Positions 21,366 through 46,969 of a DNA stretch of 64,000 nt are shown here, piece by piece. Origin of the DNA: Microlunatus kandeliicorticis (lineage in GTDB: Bacteria > Actinomycetota > Actinomycetes > Propionibacteriales > Propionibacteriaceae); contig NZ_JACGWT010000003.1 in the NCBI RefSeq assembly GCF_014137855.1, positions 124,001-188,000 on the forward strand, in the 5' to 3' direction. The notes beneath the pieces are model-generated. The model searched no databases. It was not told the origin of the DNA and saw nothing but the letters and a program-made list of their open reading frames with translations. The position numbers and the translations under genes were made by a program. How positions within the stretch are numbered: position 1 is the stretch's first letter; each line of letters opens with the position of its first letter.

Positions 21366-21385
21366 GCGGAAGAACTCCTTCATTC

Positions 21386-21560
21386 GACGTCTACCAGGTG
21401 AGCTGACGGATTCGGACCTGAAGGTGGTCCTACGGCGCCCCGCTCGTTCGGTACCGGCAAAGGCCGAACGAGTCGCCGATTCACCCCACGTGACTGGTTC
21501 CCCGGTTCCCTCGCACGACCGCTGGCCGTGTCCGGGATTCGACGGGCGTCGGGACCGGTG
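21386..21560 (-). promoter_or_regulatory. ydaO/yuaA-type cyclic di-AMP riboswitch upstream of ripC
   Basis: Read on the minus strand, the leader contains the conserved ydaO blocks in order: GGGAACCGGGGAACC, then GGGGTGAATC, a variable hairpin (CTCGTTCGG pairing with CCGAACGAG), CCGTAGG, and finally CCGAATCCGTCAGCTCACC followed by TGGTAGAC just before ripC. This order and spacing are the hallmark of the c-di-AMP aptamer, which in actinobacteria commonly precedes cell-wall hydrolase genes. Ligand binding is expected to turn expression down. The 5' limit is approximate. The remaining 218 bp up to 21778 shows no gene and nothing I can assign, though it should contain the promoter. Confidence 0.88.
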
Positions 21561-36385: not shown

Positions 36386-39300
36386 TCAGCGGCGGACCCG
36401 CGGGGCCGGCAGGTCCGGCGGGGTGGCGGCCGGGGTCCGGGCGAGCCGGTCGAAAGCCTCGGCGACCGCCCGGTCGAGCTGCGGGTCGATCCCGTCGAGG
36501 TAGTCGGCCGGGGTCATCTCGACCTCGATGTCGGGGTCGACCCCGTGGTTCTCGACGCCCCACTCGTAGCCGCTGATCCAGAACGGGTAGCGCGGCTGGG
36601 TGACGCCGGTGCCGTCGATCAGGTCGAAGCGACCGTCGATCCCCACCACGCCGCCCCAGGTGCGGGTGCCGATCACCGGACCGATCCCCATCGCCTGGAC
36701 GACCGCGTTGACGATGTCGCCGTCCGAGCCCGACCACTCGTTGGCCACGAACACCACCGGACCCCGCGGCGCGAGCGACGGGTACTCCTCGGCGGTCTCG
36801 AAGTGCCGCGAGCGGCCCCAGGCCTGCACCCGCCGGGCCAGCCGCTCGACCACCAGCTGGCTGATGTGCCCGCCGCGGTTGTAACGGACGTCGACCACCA
36901 GGCCCTCGGCGCGGGTGGCGCGCTCGAGGTCGCGGTGCAGCTGCGCCCAGCCGGGCGCCATCATGTCGGGCACGTGGACGTAGCCGAGCCGGCCCTGACC
37001 ACGCTCGGCGACGTACTGGCGCCGCCCGGCTACCCAGGCCTGGTAGCGCAGGTCCTCCTCGTCGGCCAGCGGGACGACCGCGACCCGCCGCTCGCCCCCA
37101 CCGTCGGGATCGGCCAGCCGCAGCTCGACCGGGCGGTCGGCGGCACCGATCAGCCCACCCGCCGGCCCGGTGACCGGGTCGACCGGACGCCCGTCGACCG
37201 CGGTGATCCGCATCCCCGTCCGGGCGCCCACACCGGGGGCACGGAGCGGCGAGCGCGCCTTGGGCTCCGAGGACTCGCCCGGGAGGATCGAGGTGATCAC
37301 CCAGCCGTCCTCGGACGGTTCGAGGTCGGCCCCGAGGAAGCCGAGCCGCCGGCTCTGGTCACCGGGCGGCTCCGGAGCGCTGGCGTAGGCGTGCGAGGTG
37401 TTGAACTCGCCACCGAACTCCCACAGCAGGGCGACCACGTCGTCGTGGCAGCAGGCGCGCTCGACCAGACCGAGGTAGCGACGGGCGAGCGCGTCGACGT
37501 CGATCCCGTCGAGGTCCTCGCGCCAGTAGTGGTCGCGCATCAGGCGGACGTTCTCGGCGATCATCTGCCGCCACTCGGCCACCGGGTCGAGCTCGAACCG
37601 CAGCCGGTCGAGGTCCACCGTGACCTTGGCGGGATCGTCGCCCTCGACCTTCCGGTCGGTGGGTCCGACGGTCACCGTCGCCTTGTCGCGGACGACCACC
37701 CGGCGGCCGTCGCCGCTGACCGCGTAGTCGTCGACCCGGTCGGCGACCACGGTGAGCTTGCGCGCGCCGAGGTCGAAGTGCTCGAGCGCGTCGCCCGGCG
37801 GCTCGTCGGCCAGTCCGGAGCGACCCGCACCCAGGACGCCCTGCTCGGCGTGCTCGTGGATCCAGGCCACGCCGGTCGCGGTGCTCGCGACCGCCCGGTA
37901 ACCACCGGCCGGCACCGGGAACGGGACCAGCCGCTCCTCGAAGCCGTCGAGGTCGACGTCCGGGGACGCCGGCGGCTCGCCGTCCTTCGCCGCGCCTCTC
38001 GCAGCGCCGTCGGCAGCGCTCGTCGCGTCCGGTCCGGCTCCGTCGCCCTGTCCCCCGCCGGCTCCGTCCTTGACCTCGTCCTTCCCCTCGGCCAGCGCCC
38101 AGCCATCGACCGACGGCCCGAACGGCGCCGCCTCGGTGGCGCTCAGCGGAATCAGGTAGGGCCGGGTGCCCGAGGCGAACGACATCTGGAAGACGTGCGC
38201 GTCGTAGACCGGGTCGAAGGTGCGGGTGGACAGGAACACCAGGTGCCGACCGTCGGCGGTGAACGCCGGCGCGGAGTCGGTGAAGCGGCCCTCGGTGAGC
38301 GGCACCGGATCGGACCCGGCGCGCAGGTCGGCCAGCAGCAGCTGCCGGTGCGACCAGCCGACCGGCTGGCTCCACACCAGATAGCGCCCGTCGGGGCTGA
38401 ACGCCAGCCCGTCGGGCTCGCCGTCGGCGCTCCGGGTCAGGGTGCGCACCGGGTCGGCTCCGCTCCCCTCGCCGAGGTCGACGACGCTGACCCGGCCGTC
38501 GTGGCTGACCACGGCCGCCCGGGTCCCGTCCGGGGACGAGGCCAGGCTCAGCACCCGGCCGAACCGGCCCGCGGCGAGCGTCCGCGGCGCGGTGGTGCCG
38601 TCGGTGGCGACCACGACCAGCGCGTCCTCGCCGTCGGCCCCGTCGGCCCCGTCGGCCCCGTCGGCCCCGTCGGTGACGGTGACGGCACGGTCGCGGCCGA
38701 GCGGGTGCAGCTCGCGGGCGCGGACGCCGGAGTCGGCCACCAGCGCCCGGGCCGGACCCTCGCGGTGGGTCAGGTAGAAGGCCTTGCCACGCCACTCGAC
38801 CAGCGAGCCGGCGGCGTCGTGGTCGGGTCGGACCGCGACCAGGTTCTTGGTCGGGTCGAGCCGACGGGTGGCCCGGCCGGCCACCGCCGGCAGCCGGATC
38901 TCGACCGGCTCGGGCTCCGCGTCGAGACCCGGGAGCAGATAGACGGTCCCGTAGGCGTGATAGACGACCCGGGTGCCGTCGGTGACCGGGTCGCGGACGT
39001 AGCCCTGGTCGGCGTCGTGCCGGGTGTGCTGCCGCAGCTCGGCCGCGGTGGCGGTGGCCAGGTCGGCCGCGGCCACCGAGAACAGGTTGGCCGGCTGGTC
39101 GGCCGGTCCGGGCAGCTCGGCCAGGTGGTCGGAGGCGAACACCAGCCGGTCGCCGACCCACGACGGGTTGGCCAGCCCGGCGGTGACGTCGCGCAGCACC
39201 CGGGTCCAGTCCCGGCCCTCGCCGGTCCGGTCCCACCAGAGCTTGGCCGCGGTGCCGCCGCGGTAGCGCTTCCAGTCCCCCGGCGGACGACTGTGCGGCG

Positions 39301-39739
39301 TGGCGACCACGACCCCTCCCGGTCCGGTCGCCACCCCGGAGGCTGGGCCGTGGCGGAGCCGTTCGCTCCGGCCGTCGAGACCGACGGCGTAGGTGAACGT
39401 CTGCCGCAGGTTGGCCGCGCCACCCGCGGTGGCCACCAGCACCCGGCCGTCCTCGGTCCAGCCGAGGACACCGGTGGTCGGGTGCCCCCAGTACGTGAGC
39501 CGGCGGGCGTCGCCGCCCTCGACGGGCGCGACGTAGACGTCGAAGGCCCCGTCGCGGGTCGAGGCCCAGGCGATCCAGGTCCCGTCGGGGCTGAACCGGG
39601 GCTGCCGCACCGGGGTCGCGTCGCTGCTGAACCGCCAGGCCCGACCGCCCCCGACCGGGGCGAGCCAGACGTCGTCGGCGGCACAGACGGCGAGCAGGTC
39701 GTCGTGCAGGTCCGGGAACCGGAAGTAACCGTGCGCCAT
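36386..39739 (-). CDS. Tricorn-like serine protease
   Basis: Large cytosolic peptidase of 1117 aa that trims oligopeptides released by proteasome or other proteases. The N-terminal half is a six-bladed WD/TolB-type propeller (FSPDGTWIAW, YLVWSQPVGWSH), then a second propeller, a C1 helical bundle (MRDHYWREDLDGIDVDALARRY), a PDZ domain and the C-terminal protease domain. The nucleophile lies in NEWSGSDGDIVNA near residue 1003. The substrate-facing end GYEWGVENHGVDPD matches Tricorn. A low-complexity insertion (GADGADGADG near 365) and a Gly/Asp/Ala loop near 570 are unusual. The start is ATG at 39739. It is the last gene of a five-gene run. Confidence 0.92.
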   Translation of the reverse strand: MAHGYFRFPDLHDDLLAVCAADDVWLAPVGGGRAWRFSSDATPVRQPRFSPDGTWIAWASTRDGAFDVYVAPVEGGDARRLTYWGHPTTGVLGWTEDGRVLVATAGGAANLRQTFTYAVGLDGRSERLRHGPASGVATGPGGVVVATPHSRPPGDWKRYRGGTAAKLWWDRTGEGRDWTRVLRDVTAGLANPSWVGDRLVFASDHLAELPGPADQPANLFSVAAADLATATAAELRQHTRHDADQGYVRDPVTDGTRVVYHAYGTVYLLPGLDAEPEPVEIRLPAVAGRATRRLDPTKNLVAVRPDHDAAGSLVEWRGKAFYLTHREGPARALVADSGVRARELHPLGRDRAVTVTDGADGADGADGADGEDALVVVATDGTTAPRTLAAGRFGRVLSLASSPDGTRAAVVSHDGRVSVVDLGEGSGADPVRTLTRSADGEPDGLAFSPDGRYLVWSQPVGWSHRQLLLADLRAGSDPVPLTEGRFTDSAPAFTADGRHLVFLSTRTFDPVYDAHVFQMSFASGTRPYLIPLSATEAAPFGPSVDGWALAEGKDEVKDGAGGGQGDGAGPDATSAADGAARGAAKDGEPPASPDVDLDGFEERLVPFPVPAGGYRAVASTATGVAWIHEHAEQGVLGAGRSGLADEPPGDALEHFDLGARKLTVVADRVDDYAVSGDGRRVVVRDKATVTVGPTDRKVEGDDPAKVTVDLDRLRFELDPVAEWRQMIAENVRLMRDHYWREDLDGIDVDALARRYLGLVERACCHDDVVALLWEFGGEFNTSHAYASAPEPPGDQSRRLGFLGADLEPSEDGWVITSILPGESSEPKARSPLRAPGVGARTGMRITAVDGRPVDPVTGPAGGLIGAADRPVELRLADPDGGGERRVAVVPLADEEDLRYQAWVAGRRQYVAERGQGRLGYVHVPDMMAPGWAQLHRDLERATRAEGLVVDVRYNRGGHISQLVVERLARRVQAWGRSRHFETAEEYPSLAPRGPVVFVANEWSGSDGDIVNAVVQAMGIGPVIGTRTWGGVVGIDGRFDLIDGTGVTQPRYPFWISGYEWGVENHGVDPDIEVEMTPADYLDGIDPQLDRAVAEAFDRLARTPAATPPDLPAPRVRR
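38631..38672. repeat. 9-bp coding tandem repeat within the Tricorn gene
   Basis: CCGTCGGCC repeated about 4.6 times encodes a Gly-Ala-Asp run in a surface loop of the propeller domain. Copy number could vary without a frame change. Confidence 0.9.
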
Positions 39740-39793
39740 GTCCGGCACCCTACGGATCCCCACCGACACCCGCTGCCCTGGTCCCGGGTCCGC

Positions 39794-40330
39794 TCAGCCG
39801 GCGAACCGCCACCGGGTGCAGCTGGCCGGGAACGACTCCCACCCGAACGCCGTCCGCGGGGTCACCGCGTACAGCCCGCCCTCGTCCCAGCCGGTCGGCT
39901 CGGGGCTGTAGCCGCGCGTCCCGAACAACCGGGTGAACGCAGCCGCCAGCCGCCCACCGAGCTCGGCCCCCGGCGGCCCGGCCTCGGCCGCGACCCCCTC
40001 GACGATCAGGGCCCGGTCGCCGTCCTCGAGGTGCACGCTGATCGCGGGGTTGGCGGCGAGATTGCGCATCCGCCGGGTCTCCGGACTGCCGTCGAACCAG
40101 AGCCGACGGTCGAGCCAGACGCCCCAGGCGGGCATCGCGTGCGGACGGCCGTCGGGACGGGTGGTGTGGAACCAGAACGTGCCGGTGGCCTGCAGCCGCT
40201 GCTCCGCCCAGGACCAGGGCAGCAGGCCCTCGTCGGTGTCCGGGACGCCGTAGTCGTGCGGCACCCTGGGCCGCGAGGCGACCGGTTCGGGCGGCGGGGA
40301 CCAGGCGGTGTTCGGTGGTGGGTCGTCCAT
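39794..40330 (-). CDS. Pyridoxamine 5'-phosphate oxidase-fold (PPOX/FDOR) protein
   Basis: Split-barrel flavin- or F420-binding protein of 178 aa. The opening strands read GTFWFHTTRPDGRPHAMPAWGVW near residue 49, then LWFDGSPETRRMRNLAANP and AISVHLEDGDRALIVEG, the usual PPOX order. The C-terminus ends WESFPASCTRWRFA, often seen in actinobacterial FDOR proteins. The reaction cannot be assigned; members reduce quinones or other substrates with F420H2 or FMN. It lies between the S9 peptidase (47 bp) and Tricorn (54 bp) on the same strand. Confidence 0.88.
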   Translation of the reverse strand: MDDPPPNTAWSPPPEPVASRPRVPHDYGVPDTDEGLLPWSWAEQRLQATGTFWFHTTRPDGRPHAMPAWGVWLDRRLWFDGSPETRRMRNLAANPAISVHLEDGDRALIVEGVAAEAGPPGAELGGRLAAAFTRLFGTRGYSPEPTGWDEGGLYAVTPRTAFGWESFPASCTRWRFAG

Positions 40331-40377: not shown

Positions 40378-42309
40378 TCAGCCCGCAGCACCGGTGACCG
40401 GGTCGACCAGCCACCGGGTGAGCCACCCGCGGACCGCCGCGGTCAGCCGTTCCCGGTTCTCCTGCTTGGTGATCGCGTGCCCCTCGTCGTCGAAGACCAG
40501 CAGCTCGTGGACCGCGCCGCGTTCGGCCAGTGCGGCGGCGACCTGGTGCGACTCGCTGGTCGGCACGTTGGTGTCCTGCCCGCCGTGGACCACCAGCAGC
40601 GGGGCCCGAATCGCGTCCAGCCGGGTCATCGGCGAGAGCCGTCCGAGCAGCTCCCGGTCCCGGACCGGGTGGCCGTACTTCGGCTGCGCCGCCAACGCGA
40701 TCCACGGATCGGTGTGGGCGTAGAAGGTGCGCAGGTCGCTCATCCCGCAGATGCTGATCCCGGCCGCGAACAGCGCGGGGTGGAAGGTCAGCGACGCCTG
40801 GGTGAGGTAGCCGCCGTAGGACCAGCCGGCGCAGCCGATCCGCCCTGGGTCGGCCCCGAGCTCCGCGACCAGGAACCGGACGCAGTCGGCGACGTCGTCG
40901 ATCCCGGCGAACCGCCGCTCGACGTCGTCGGCGTGGCTGAACGCGCGACCGAAGCCGCCCGAGCCGCGGACGTTCGGGGCCAGCACCGAGATCCCCGCCG
41001 CCAGCACCGCCGGGAATAGCTCGCTGTAGTCCGGTCGGGCCTGGTCCTCCGGTCCGCCGTGCAGGTACAACAGCGTCGGCCCGGCGGGACCATCGGCGTC
41101 GGCCGGGTAGAACCAACCGGTCAGCTCGAGGCCGTCCCGGGCGGCGAACCGCACCAGCCGCGGCTGGACGGCGTCCGGCTGCCGGATGGCCGGCTCGATC
41201 GGCTCCCACCGCCCGGACCGCGGGTCGACCACCTGGACCGACCGCGGGCGGCCCGGCGCCTGGACGGTCAGCGCCAGCAGCGTGCCGTCGGCGGTGATGC
41301 TCAGCTCGGAGCCGACCACCGGGTGCGACCCGTCCGGTCCGGACCCGGGCAGCGGCAACGGTGGGCGCAGGGTGCCGTCGGAGAGCTCGAGCACCTGGAG
41401 CTCGGAGGCGCCGGCCAGGTTCCACAGCAGCACCACCGTGCTGAGGTCGTCGCTGACCGCGAACTCGTCGAGGTCGGCGTCGGCGCGCTCGGCCAGCACC
41501 CGGTGGGTGACCCCGTGCTCGGTCACCGTCACCTGGAGCAGCCGGGCGAAGTCCTGGCCGGGTGGCCGCGGCCGCGCGCCTTCGTGGTCGCTGCGCACGA
41601 GCACCCGGACGAACCCCCGGGTGCTGTCGAAGCCGTACTCCTTCGCCGGCCGGTAGAGCCGGGTGCGGGTCTCGCCGGCCACGTGCAGCAGCCGGAGCGG
41701 GCGCTGGTCGTCGAGGATCACCCCCGGGTCGGTGACCGAGCCCGGGTCCGGCGGCAGCAGCGGGGCGGCGATCCCGCCCCGCACCAGCGCCAGCGACCGG
41801 TCCCCGCGCGGGCCGGTGCGGATCAGCGTGGAGCCGGCCCAGGCGTCGACCAGCCGGGCGCCGCGCTGGCGGTGCACCACGGTGACCAGGCCGTTGCGCG
41901 GGTCCACCAGCTGCGCTTCCGCCTCGGTGCCGTCGGCGTCGAGCGCGTGGACCGCGACCAGCGGGCCGTCCCAGCCGATCAGCTCGGCGGTGCCGTCGGC
42001 CTGGTCGATCCGCCGCGCGGAACGGTCGTCGGGATCGGTGGTGACCACCCACACCTGGGTGCGCACGCCCCCGTCCGGGGCGGTCTGACAGGCCAGCCAG
42101 CCTCCGTCGGGCGAGTGGATGATCCGGGTGATCGGACCGTCGACCGGCAGCACCACCGGTCGCGACTCCCCCGCCGCCACCCGCGACCCGCGGGCGCGCA
42201 GGAACCGCTGCACGGCCCGCGGATAGCCACCGTCGTCGACGATGTGCGCGAACGCGGCGCCGTCGGGGCTGATCGAGGCGCCGTAGCTGGGTCGCAGCTC
42301 GGCGTTCAC
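40378..42309 (-). CDS. S9-family prolyl oligopeptidase-like peptidase
   Basis: Serine peptidase of 643 aa with an N-terminal seven-bladed propeller (residues about 1-380) and a C-terminal alpha/beta hydrolase domain. The nucleophile is in CAGWSYGGYLT (Ser near 497), the acid in HGGQDTNVPTSES (Asp near 579) and the His in FDDEGHAI (near 611). The segment YLHGGPEDQARP is the oxyanion loop. No signal peptide, so it acts on cytosolic peptides, as acyl-aminoacyl or dipeptidyl peptidases do. GTG at 42309 opens NAELRPSYGASISPDG, the start of the first blade. It lies 55 bp after the amidotransferase gene. Confidence 0.92.
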   Translation of the reverse strand: MNAELRPSYGASISPDGAAFAHIVDDGGYPRAVQRFLRARGSRVAAGESRPVVLPVDGPITRIIHSPDGGWLACQTAPDGGVRTQVWVVTTDPDDRSARRIDQADGTAELIGWDGPLVAVHALDADGTEAEAQLVDPRNGLVTVVHRQRGARLVDAWAGSTLIRTGPRGDRSLALVRGGIAAPLLPPDPGSVTDPGVILDDQRPLRLLHVAGETRTRLYRPAKEYGFDSTRGFVRVLVRSDHEGARPRPPGQDFARLLQVTVTEHGVTHRVLAERADADLDEFAVSDDLSTVVLLWNLAGASELQVLELSDGTLRPPLPLPGSGPDGSHPVVGSELSITADGTLLALTVQAPGRPRSVQVVDPRSGRWEPIEPAIRQPDAVQPRLVRFAARDGLELTGWFYPADADGPAGPTLLYLHGGPEDQARPDYSELFPAVLAAGISVLAPNVRGSGGFGRAFSHADDVERRFAGIDDVADCVRFLVAELGADPGRIGCAGWSYGGYLTQASLTFHPALFAAGISICGMSDLRTFYAHTDPWIALAAQPKYGHPVRDRELLGRLSPMTRLDAIRAPLLVVHGGQDTNVPTSESHQVAAALAERGAVHELLVFDDEGHAITKQENRERLTAAVRGWLTRWLVDPVTGAAG

Positions 42310-42364
42310 GCGGCGGGGCTGCTCGGCTCGGGTGCGGACACGATCGCCCAGTCTCCGCTGCGGG

Positions 42365-44146
42365 TCAGCTCTCGAAGCTCTGCAGCCACATCTCGAGCAC
42401 GGCGACCTGCCAGAGGACGTTGGACCCGAGCGTGGTCCGCGGGCCGTTCGGGTCGGCGAGCAGCTGCTCCAGCGCGGCCGGGGCGTAGATCGCCCGGTCC
42501 CGCGCCGACGGGGCGGCCAGCGTGTCGCGGACCAGGTCGAGCACGCCGCCCTCGAGGTGCCGGATCCCCGGCACCGGGAAGTAGCCCTTGGTCCGGTCGA
42601 TGACCTCGGCCGGGAGCAGCGACCGGCAGCCCTCCTTGAGGACGCCCTTGCCGCCACCGGCGAGCTTGAGCTCCGGTGGGCAGCGCGCGGCGAGCTCGAC
42701 GAACTCGTGGTCGAGGAAGGGCACCCGGGCCTCCAGCCCCCAGGCCATGGTCATGGTGTCGACCCGCTTCACCGGGTCGTCGACCAGCATCACCGTGGTG
42801 TCGAGCCGGAGCGCCGCATCGACGGCGGTGTCCGCCCCGGGACGCCCCTGGTGCGAGGCGACGAACGCCGCGCTGACGTCCCGGTCGAGCGCGTGGTCGG
42901 GGTTGAGCAGCCCGACCAGCTCGTCGTGGGTCCGGTCGACGAACACCGACCGGTACGCCGGCGACACCGCGTCGCGGCCGACCTCGGCCAGCGGCGGGTA
43001 CCAGTCGTAGCCGGCCAGCACCTCGTCGGCACCCTGGCCGGACTGGACGACCTTGATCGACTTCGTCACCTCCTCGCTGAGCAGGTAGAAGGCCACGCAG
43101 TCGTGACTGACCATCGGTTCGCTCATCGCCGCGATCGTCCGCGGCACCGCCGGGAGCAGCCGCGAGCTGTCGATGTGGATCCGGTGGTGGTCGGTGGCGA
43201 AGGTCCGGGCGACCAGGTCGGAGTAGGCGTACTCGTCGCCCGACTCGCCGCCCGCCGAGTCGAAGCCGATGCTGAAGGTGGCCAGGTCGGTCTGCCCCTG
43301 TTCGGCGAGCAGCGCGACCACGATCGAGGAGTCGATGCCGCCGCTGAGCAGCACCCCGACCGGGACGTCGGCGACCATCCGCCGCACCACCGCGGCCCGC
43401 AGCGCTTCCATGATCGCGTCCTGCCAGTCGCGCGCCGACCAGTCGGCCCGCGCGGGGTCGCGGGTGAAGTCGGGTTCCCAGTAGGTCTGGTCGCGGCTGC
43501 GGCCGTCCGGTTCGATCACCCGGACGGTGGCCGGCGGCAGCTTGCGGACCCCGCGGAACAGGGTGAGCGGGGCCGGCACCACCGAGTGGAAGCTCAGGTA
43601 GTGGTGCAGCGCCTCCCGGTCGAGCCCGGTGTCGACGTCGCCGGCGGCGACGATCGCTCGCAGCGACGAGGCGAACCGGATCCGCTGTCCCTGCTGCGAG
43701 ACGTAGAGCGGCTTGATCCCCAACCGGTCCCGGCCGAGCACCACCCGTCCGGTGTCGGTCTCGACCACCGCGAAGGCGAACATGCCCTTGAAGTGGCGCA
43801 CGCAGTCGGTGCCCCAGCGGTGGTAGCCCTTGATCACCACCTCGCTGTCGGCGGTGGAGAAGAACCGGTAACCGGCCGCGATCAGCTCCTCGCGGAGCTC
43901 GCGGTAGTTGTAGATGCAGCCGTTGAACACCAGGGCCAGCCCGAGCTCGCTGTCGATCATGGGCTGGCAGCCGCGGGCGGACAGGTCGATGATCGACAAC
44001 CGGCGGTGACCCAGCGCGATCGCCCCCTGGGCGTGGATCCCGCCGGAGTCCGGCCCGCGCGGCGTCATGCAGTCGGTCATCGTCTGCACCGCGCCGACGT
44101 CGGCCGGCGCGCCGTCGAGCCGCACCTCCCCGCAGATCCCGCACAT
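42365..44146 (-). CDS. asnO: AsnO-type glutamine amidotransferase (asparagine-synthetase family)
   Basis: Class II glutamine amidotransferase with an ATP-dependent synthetase domain, 593 aa. N-terminal Cys2 is the nucleophile (MCGICGE), with GPDSGG near 31 and NGCIYN near 75. The synthetase PP-loop is LLSGGIDSS near residue 267. Sequence blocks FNGCIYNYREL, SFHSVVPAPLTLF and DDPVKRVDTMTMAWGLEARVP fit the branch that amidates N-acetylglutaminylglutamine (the trio_amidotrans/AsnO group) better than ordinary AsnB. It should therefore amidate a carboxylate of a small peptide or amino acid. GAGGAGAGGAC lies about 4 bases before the ATG. It lies 42 bp from the upstream ligase gene. Confidence 0.9.
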   Translation of the reverse strand: MCGICGEVRLDGAPADVGAVQTMTDCMTPRGPDSGGIHAQGAIALGHRRLSIIDLSARGCQPMIDSELGLALVFNGCIYNYRELREELIAAGYRFFSTADSEVVIKGYHRWGTDCVRHFKGMFAFAVVETDTGRVVLGRDRLGIKPLYVSQQGQRIRFASSLRAIVAAGDVDTGLDREALHHYLSFHSVVPAPLTLFRGVRKLPPATVRVIEPDGRSRDQTYWEPDFTRDPARADWSARDWQDAIMEALRAAVVRRMVADVPVGVLLSGGIDSSIVVALLAEQGQTDLATFSIGFDSAGGESGDEYAYSDLVARTFATDHHRIHIDSSRLLPAVPRTIAAMSEPMVSHDCVAFYLLSEEVTKSIKVVQSGQGADEVLAGYDWYPPLAEVGRDAVSPAYRSVFVDRTHDELVGLLNPDHALDRDVSAAFVASHQGRPGADTAVDAALRLDTTVMLVDDPVKRVDTMTMAWGLEARVPFLDHEFVELAARCPPELKLAGGGKGVLKEGCRSLLPAEVIDRTKGYFPVPGIRHLEGGVLDLVRDTLAAPSARDRAIYAPAALEQLLADPNGPRTTLGSNVLWQVAVLEMWLQSFES

Positions 44147-44188
44147 GGTGTCCGTCCTCTCCTCGGCCGACCGGTCCGCCCGTTCGGG

Positions 44189-46801
<2,613 letters not shown>

Positions 46802-46969
46802 GCCTGGTCACGCTAGGACGGCCAGGTAACGCTGCGGTAACGGTCGGCCACCGGCTGCGTTCCGAGACCCTGGATCGGCCACGCCCGCCGGTGACCGGCT
46901 CGTGCTGCGTGAGCGGCTTCGGAAGAATTTCTGCTCGACGGCTCACAAAACGGCTCGCGAACCGGCCTT

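Follow-up and report, generated by a model that had tools for sequence, protein, structure and literature searches.

The window, by which we mean the whole stretch of 64,000 nt of Microlunatus kandeliicorticis DNA that was analysed, carries three consecutive genes, separated by gaps of 42 and 55 bp, for a fusion of a GCS2-type ligase with a circularly permuted (CP) ATP-grasp, an AsnO-type amidotransferase and an S9 hydrolase (Table 1). An earlier, sequence-only reading had described the trio in this order, on this strand and with these gaps, and the open reading frames and domains agree with it. In profile searches, the GCS2 part of the fusion scores 183.1 bits with PF04107 and 277 bits with TIGR02050 (cut-off 176.4), and the ATP-grasp part covers PF14403 completely (1–374 of 374 positions, 391.9 bits) and matches 3n6x, which together with YbdK (1tt4/1r8g) is the nearest solved structure by sequence. 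Across 49 aligned rows, 35 of the 37 motif columns checked in the fusion are invariant and the other two have one exception each, and the catalytic triad of the S9 hydrolase (Ser497/Asp579/His611) shows no variation in 61 out of 61 rows. This anatomy supports a small-peptide pathway, in which a product would be ligated, amidated and recycled. The fusion can be likened to GshF, where a gamma-glutamyl ligase is fused to an ATP-grasp, and by this likeness two sequential couplings are predicted. In the trio, however, the ligase is of the GCS2 family, the ATP-grasp is circularly permuted and AsnO follows, and the GshF models TIGR01435 and PRK02471 gave no match to the fusion at an E-value of 0.01.

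Table 1 Features of the fusion–AsnO–S9 locus, with positions in the window
Feature	Position	Strand	Remarks
GlnR/MtrA-type direct repeat GTTAC-N6-GTTAC (spacer CGCAGC)	46826-46841	minus	Exact GTnAC-n6-GTnAC; putative site
Putative -10, TAGCGT	46810-46815	minus	10 bp past the repeat, 8 nt ahead of the fusion ATG
GCS2–CP-ATP-grasp fusion ligase	44189-46801	minus	870 aa; in the place of Ngg
GCS2 domain (PF04107), fusion residues 14-290	about 45932-46762	minus	Carboxylate-amine ligase
CP_ATPgrasp_2 (PF14403), fusion residues 468-846	about 44264-45400	minus	Circularly permuted type-2 ATP-grasp
AsnO-type amidotransferase	42365-44146	minus	593 aa; GATase_7 and Asn_synthase; TIGR03104; Cys2 present
S9 hydrolase, acylaminoacyl-peptidase-like	40378-42309	minus	643 aa; GTG start; takes the slot of the M42 peptidase

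The amidotransferase had been placed in the branch of enzymes that act in the synthesis of N-acetylglutaminylglutamine amide (NAGGN), and this assignment is confirmed by its score of 949.5 bits with TIGR03104 (cut-off 570.1), more than twice the 425.2 bits obtained with the general asparagine synthase model TIGR01536. The three sequence blocks quoted in its favour are indeed present, at residues 74-80, 185-193 and 456-472. Since the protein also clears the TIGR01536 cut-off of 267.1, it could be regarded as an ordinary asparagine synthetase that happens to lie beside unrelated genes, but we find this hardly credible in view of the ratio of the two scores, the presence of a separate AsnB-like gene elsewhere in the genome and a neighbourhood that is kept over 48 genus labels among the best 80 of at least 525 fusion loci. 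The idea is contradicted as well by the way in which 87 AsnO places, among the matches listed, are divided over ligase types (see below). In the host genome (4.3 Mb, nine contigs, 98.64% complete), one AsnO exceeds the TIGR03104 cut-off, and the AsnB-like gene is weaker and stays under it.

A known system with which the trio can be compared is the asnO-ngg pathway for NAGGN (TIGR03103, TIGR03104 and TIGR03106). The two share the AsnO equivalog and the three-gene logic of ligase, amidotransferase and hydrolase. Their partners differ: the NAGGN ligase, Ngg, is a GNAT-ATP-grasp protein, whereas that of the trio combines GCS2 and CP-ATP-grasp without an acetyltransferase, the NAGGN hydrolase is an M42 peptidase, whereas S9, EgtC-like or DUF1028 proteins are found here, and a GlnR-type promoter lies at the fusion gene of the trio. 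The proposal that ligase and peptidase were swapped for unrelated enzymes is borne out by the profile scores, with the fusion for Ngg and S9 for M42. The best score for Ngg (TIGR03103) in the host genome is 35.7 bits, against a cut-off of 569, and no M42 peptidase (TIGR03106) occurs in the trio cluster, where S9 occupies the slot. At the level of protein families, this comparison shows that AsnO was kept while ligase and hydrolase were exchanged.

The trio is not confined to this genome. Within the genus, 9 of the 20 genomes (the host included) have an AsnO over the cut-off, and in all eight others a one-frame fusion is followed by AsnO and then S9. In a member of another genus of the same family (L083), Ngg adjoins AsnO and an M42 gene lies on the opposite strand. 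An even draw of 246 genomes from the phylum yielded 28 with AsnO, which lies beside Ngg in 19, beside the fusion in two (one being the host), beside GCS2 alone in four and beside an ATP-grasp in three; of the 19 loci with Ngg, 8 have M42 at a distance of up to about 8 kb. The three loci with AsnO and ATP-grasp belong to a single family (f19), and two also have a divergent GCS2, split over two frames in L043; in the third, L042, a divergent GCS2 was looked for and not found.

Public genomes were scanned for relatives of the fusion, and the best 80 of at least 525 were kept, a set that leans to AsnO-linked loci since the query alignment (A2) was made from AsnO-linked fusions. These 80 loci carry 48 genus labels; AsnO is present in 71 of them, and 61 of these 71 have S9 too. 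The arrangement, which recurs in 61 of the best 80 fusion loci and in eight out of eight other AsnO-bearing genomes of the genus, is not due to chance, and the pairing of AsnO with the fusion is conserved in relatives across many genera instead of being unique to this genome. Among the ten AsnO loci of the best 80 without an S9 match, three carry an EgtC homologue, four have a sequence that stops within or soon after AsnO (L124, L136, L142, L151), one has an S9-like gene call under the BLAST limit (L134), and two have neither S9 nor EgtC (L147, L152). The fusion occurs without AsnO in nine of the best 80, with S9 in L102 and with neither partner in eight, of which L143 has a sequence that stops just past the fusion. 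Besides the trio, no gene is conserved across the loci, no cluster being present in more than nine of the best 80. It can be imagined that the trio acts not on a free metabolite but on a larger target, such as a cell-wall peptide or a protein tag, as asparagine-synthetase-like enzymes can amidate peptide C-termini according to an excerpt of a preprint (PMC13060819) and CP-ATP-grasp proteins are also found away from AsnO. We consider this very improbable, given this lack of a further conserved gene and the scores of AsnO within the NAGGN equivalog family.

A sample of 296 genomes from the class, for which no more than three candidates per genome were scored in the protein search, gave 87 AsnO places among the matches listed. 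Ngg accompanies 44 of these, the fusion 27, GCS2 only 11 and a partial fusion one, and four have neither ligase; weak neighbours may be hidden from these counts by the E-value limit. Among the matches listed for these 296 genomes, none of the 87 places has both Ngg and a GCS2-type ligase, and of 150 matches listed 92 were set aside as lying elsewhere, none of these being within 10 kb of an AsnO. Three of the four places with neither ligase, among the matches listed, have S9; in L196, AsnO and S9 lie beside a fragment of the fusion, and in L197 there is no partner gene on the AsnO strand. In L195 (genome G405), AsnO (71%) and S9 occur without a ligase gene beside them and are followed by genes that we read as a GntR regulator, an NCS1-type permease and a hydantoin-racemase-like protein.

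Of the one-piece fusions listed for the class, 25 out of 31 have AsnO within 4 kb; four of the remaining six have S9 and two neither partner, one of the latter (L192) being on the same contig as L123 of the public scan. A fusion and S9 with no AsnO in between or in the vicinity are thus seen in a Corynebacterium MAG (L102) and in four loci of one family (L187, L188, L190, L191). These loci indicate that the ligase-hydrolase pair can persist without amidation, which would therefore not be universal, and the view of the trio as a unit has to be adjusted to this extent: the unit is common, but in some genomes only the fusion and S9 are present. In genome G342, which has a fusion-S9 pair, there is also an Ngg above the cut-off with no AsnO nearby (L189), and no AsnO was present among the matches listed at an E-value of 1e-150 (four candidates scored).

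The exchange of partners extends beyond what was proposed from the window. Replacement of the peptidase by S9 holds here, while elsewhere at least four hydrolase types fill the slot, namely S9, M42, DUF1028 and an EgtC paralogue. The fusion and GCS2-only loci mostly have S9, and DUF1028 is found in the f19 loci. On the ligase side the fusion is widespread, but Streptomyces fungicidicus and its relatives have GCS2 without ATP-grasp.

The EgtC homologues, found in the slot of three loci of Thermomonosporaceae, score 216.2 (L118), 211.6 and 223.7 bits, two of them just under the TIGR03442 cut-off of 218.65. Each of these three genomes has a second, higher-scoring EgtC elsewhere (261.4, 266.5 and 245.3 bits), and of four other genomes three have exactly one EgtC over the cut-off and Microlunatus flavus has none. 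EgtC is an enzyme of ergothioneine synthesis that removes gamma-glutamyl groups, and its family cleaves gamma-glutamyl amides. Its paralogue in the slot differs from EgtC of that pathway in its neighbours, among which no ergothioneine-like genes are apparent by eye. The presence of an EgtC paralogue where a hydrolase is expected fits a gamma-glutamyl product, although this substitution for S9 is limited to three loci from a single family.

This bears on the question whether the trio makes NAGGN itself by means of analogous enzymes. The AsnO columns, including the surroundings of the catalytic lysine, are mostly common with the Ngg type, with 184 of 593 columns being shared by both types at more than 95%. 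GCS2 enzymes form gamma-glutamyl bonds, however, and the occurrence of an EgtC paralogue in the hydrolase slot and, above all, a conserved set without acetyltransferase make NAGGN an unlikely product; we regard the analogous route as improbable. In an alignment with E. coli AsnB (1ct9), Lys520 of AsnO falls on residue 449, which we take to be the catalytic lysine. When 86 rows of the GCS2 type are compared with 22 of the Ngg type, six columns pass the thresholds for separating the types (257, 278, 528, 529, 570 and 574), and two of these, 528 and 529, lie a short way past Lys520. Asp349 and Arg461 are unvarying in the aligned rows of both types. In an excerpt of a preprint (PMC13060819), a modelled Asp-Arg pair of AsnO is similar to the one with which E. 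coli AsnB reads aspartate, and in our reading the modelled pair corresponds to Asp349/Arg461. The pattern of columns fits a substrate with a similar C-terminal residue and a changed body. The AsnO of L083 has Ser instead of the catalytic Cys at position 2, the sole case in 114 rows, though it lies beside Ngg.

The AsnO proteins that occur with the fusion and those that occur with GCS2 only (Streptomyces, Embleya, Nonomuraea) form one group, with SH-aLRT support of 94 in a tree of 74 rows, which includes 40 of the best-80 fusion-type rows and the rooting of which depends on one long outgroup branch, and of 99 in a second tree of 54 rows. The AsnO of L056, a GCS2-only locus, falls outside this group. 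A single origin of all non-Ngg AsnO is not rejected by the AU test (p 0.19). Since the GCS2-only Streptomyces rows are nested within the fusion group, beside the fusion-bearing Streptomyces L136, the ATP-grasp was probably lost in these organisms. The AsnO of the window groups with proteins of Mycobacterium, Gordonia, Aldersonia, Kineosphaera and Arsenicicoccus (support 100), and this position away from four congeners suggests that it was acquired by transfer.

A further recurring element is found upstream of the fusion gene. The position of the putative -10 suggests that the fusion mRNA is leaderless or has a very short leader; no promoter emerged from a sigma-70 scan. If one mismatch at most is allowed, GTNAC-N6-GTNAC is present in 32 of 89 fusion upstreams other than that of the window, as compared to 29 of 331 controls from the same loci; Fisher p-values for such comparisons are too small, since the motif was picked after viewing the window and the upstreams come from loci of common descent. 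When each genus in the best-80 set is represented by a single locus, the box is found in a mean of 16.3 out of 48, against a control rate of 0.08. Of the other spacings at the same stringency only N5 is in weak excess (10/89 vs 17/331), while at two mismatches spacers of 7 and 8 (11/89 each) and of 4 and 5 (6/89 each) are also above controls. The box followed by TANNNT at a gap of 10, with at most two mismatches, occurs at 31 of 89 other fusion genes and in 9 of 329 controls, and TANNNT at gaps of 6-9 and 11-14 at none of the 89. After removal of duplicates, defined by identity of the last 60 nt (L091/L092, L076/L167, L082/L133), the full layout remains in 28 of 86 distinct fusion upstreams and is lacking in 58. 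The N6 box is not enriched ahead of Ngg-type AsnO (1/21) and was not found ahead of GCS2-only genes (0/9).

The repeat resembles the GlnR consensus, given as GTnAC-n6-GTnAC and as Gn2AC-n6-GnAACA in excerpts of PMC3087709 and PMC3662644, respectively. The site of MtrA, a regulator linked to osmotic stress, is similar to that of GlnR (PMC13189361, in part), and a title in the reference list of a review states that MtrA binds GlnR boxes (PMC10704036, in part). Exact matches to stricter forms favour GlnR over MtrA, though both bind similar sites. In the host genome, the form ending in TAGNNT has a single exact match, at the fusion promoter. In six genomes, five exact matches to this form precede two fusion genes, one acetamidase/formamidase gene and two other ORFs (L206, L211) without evident nitrogen link. 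The form with GTAAC as second half has four exact matches in 12 genomes, one ahead of a fusion and three before genes that we read as a NarK-like nitrate transporter, an NCS1 permease and an acetamidase/formamidase. Most of the one-mismatch matches that were read do not precede evident nitrogen genes. The numbers of one-mismatch matches in two Mycobacterium genomes, 5 and 6, do not exceed those of a reversed control, 11 and 9. As a whole, the promoter data speak for regulation by nitrogen and not directly for salt or signalling.

This raises the possibility that the trio serves nitrogen metabolism instead of osmoadaptation, being induced by GlnR under nitrogen limitation and storing or reworking amine nitrogen in the form of gamma-glutamyl amides. 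The fixed geometry of the GlnR-type promoter and the three other GTAAC-form matches would agree with such a role, as would the genes after the trio in four of five Gordonia/Williamsia loci, read by us as GntR, NCS1-type permease and hydantoin-racemase-like genes, the fifth having the GntR gene alone. On the other hand, the AsnO system closest to the trio among those characterised makes an osmolyte according to the part of PMC8070244 consulted, MtrA with its link to osmotic stress binds a similar site, and GlnR is reported to act on an osmolyte operon too, as it represses the ectoine operon and thereby spares glutamate (PMC10704036, in part). Nitrogen gating of an osmolyte thus has a precedent, and both roles can coincide. 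An exclusive role in nitrogen metabolism appears rather unlikely to us, but it deserves serious consideration.

We lean towards regarding the trio as a version of the NAGGN module that is conserved in actinobacteria and specifies a nitrogen-gated pathway for a gamma-glutamyl peptide amide. In this pathway, the GCS2 domain would spend ATP to couple glutamate, through its gamma-carboxylate, with the amino group of a second amino acid, in the simplest case glutamine, yielding gamma-Glu-X; gamma-glutamyl chemistry is proposed on account of the ligase family, GCS2, and of the occurrence of EgtC in the hydrolase slot. The fused ATP-grasp may append a further residue, an optional step that would be dispensed with in S. 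fungicidicus and its relatives. Amidation is assigned to AsnO, which with glutamine as donor would convert the C-terminal carboxylate and give a small, nitrogen-rich, net-neutral peptide amide. The S9 hydrolase, or the EgtC paralogue in the three Thermomonosporaceae loci, may break this product down again, and transcription from the GlnR/MtrA-type promoter would gate the pool by nitrogen status. The product would most likely serve as a compatible solute and/or nitrogen reserve. An osmolyte role would be plausible, and no salt-response data for such loci were found in the portions of the literature examined. As a counterpoint, the box could mean activation in nitrogen starvation, which is an odd time for making a nitrogen-rich solute.

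Many actinobacteria with the trio thus probably make an amidated glutamyl peptide different from NAGGN, with a production that appears to be tied to nitrogen supply. A more specific and tentative proposal, which we hold to be possible, is that Actinomycetota make undescribed C-terminally amidated gamma-glutamyl peptides as nitrogen-gated solutes under GlnR/MtrA, with gamma-Glu-Gln-NH2 as the simplest form where GCS2 acts alone and with extension by the ATP-grasp elsewhere. If so, many genomes that are called NAGGN producers from AsnO alone are mislabelled. The AsnO of S. fungicidicus, for example, lies beside a GCS2 ligase and is annotated as an N-acetylglutaminylglutamine amidotransferase. 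A widespread actinobacterial solute pathway would then have been overlooked, since AsnO alone is read as NAGGN, and the locus would be both a clear natural case in which one tailoring enzyme is kept while its two partners are swapped and a concrete tie between nitrogen regulation and solute synthesis. An amidoligase survey published in 2009 by Iyer and co-workers may already predict neighbourhoods of GCS2, ATP-grasp and AsnB, so we make no claim to first sight.

The only close match found in the parts of the literature consulted is a passage on Frankia casuarinae in PMC5563000, in which an AsnO of more than 60% identity is described together with a putative Ngg of less than 15% identity and a dipeptidase between them. 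In three Frankia/Parafrankia loci of our set, the fusion is likewise directly upstream of AsnO; the excerpt of PMC5563000 does not mention a GCS2-ATP-grasp gene, however, and its strains may differ from our loci. Micromonospora MT25 is reported to make NAGGN and to have asnO and ngg (PMC8146288, in part). Excerpts of two papers on osmotic stress in Streptomyces contain no AsnO, NAGGN or GCS2 terms, and those of three papers on GlnR (PMC3662644, PMC3087709, PMC10704036) no asparagine synthetase or glutamate-cysteine ligase terms.

Some further observations concern the surroundings and distribution of the trio. Fusion trios are present in MAGs labelled Nevskia (L091) and Myxococcales (L106). Since L091 has the same gene layout and promoter sequence as a Mycobacterium MAG locus (L092), mis-binning of the former is likely. 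In the window, the trio is followed on the same strand by genes for a tricorn-type protease (1127 aa) and an F420/PPOX-like oxidoreductase (36386-40330), a pair that is absent from the gene clusters common to the best 80 of at least 525 fusion loci. Further away, a c-di-AMP (ydaO) riboswitch on the minus strand (21373-21554, 80.2 bits, E-value 5e-17) is the sole Rfam match above the gathering score within the 64 kb.
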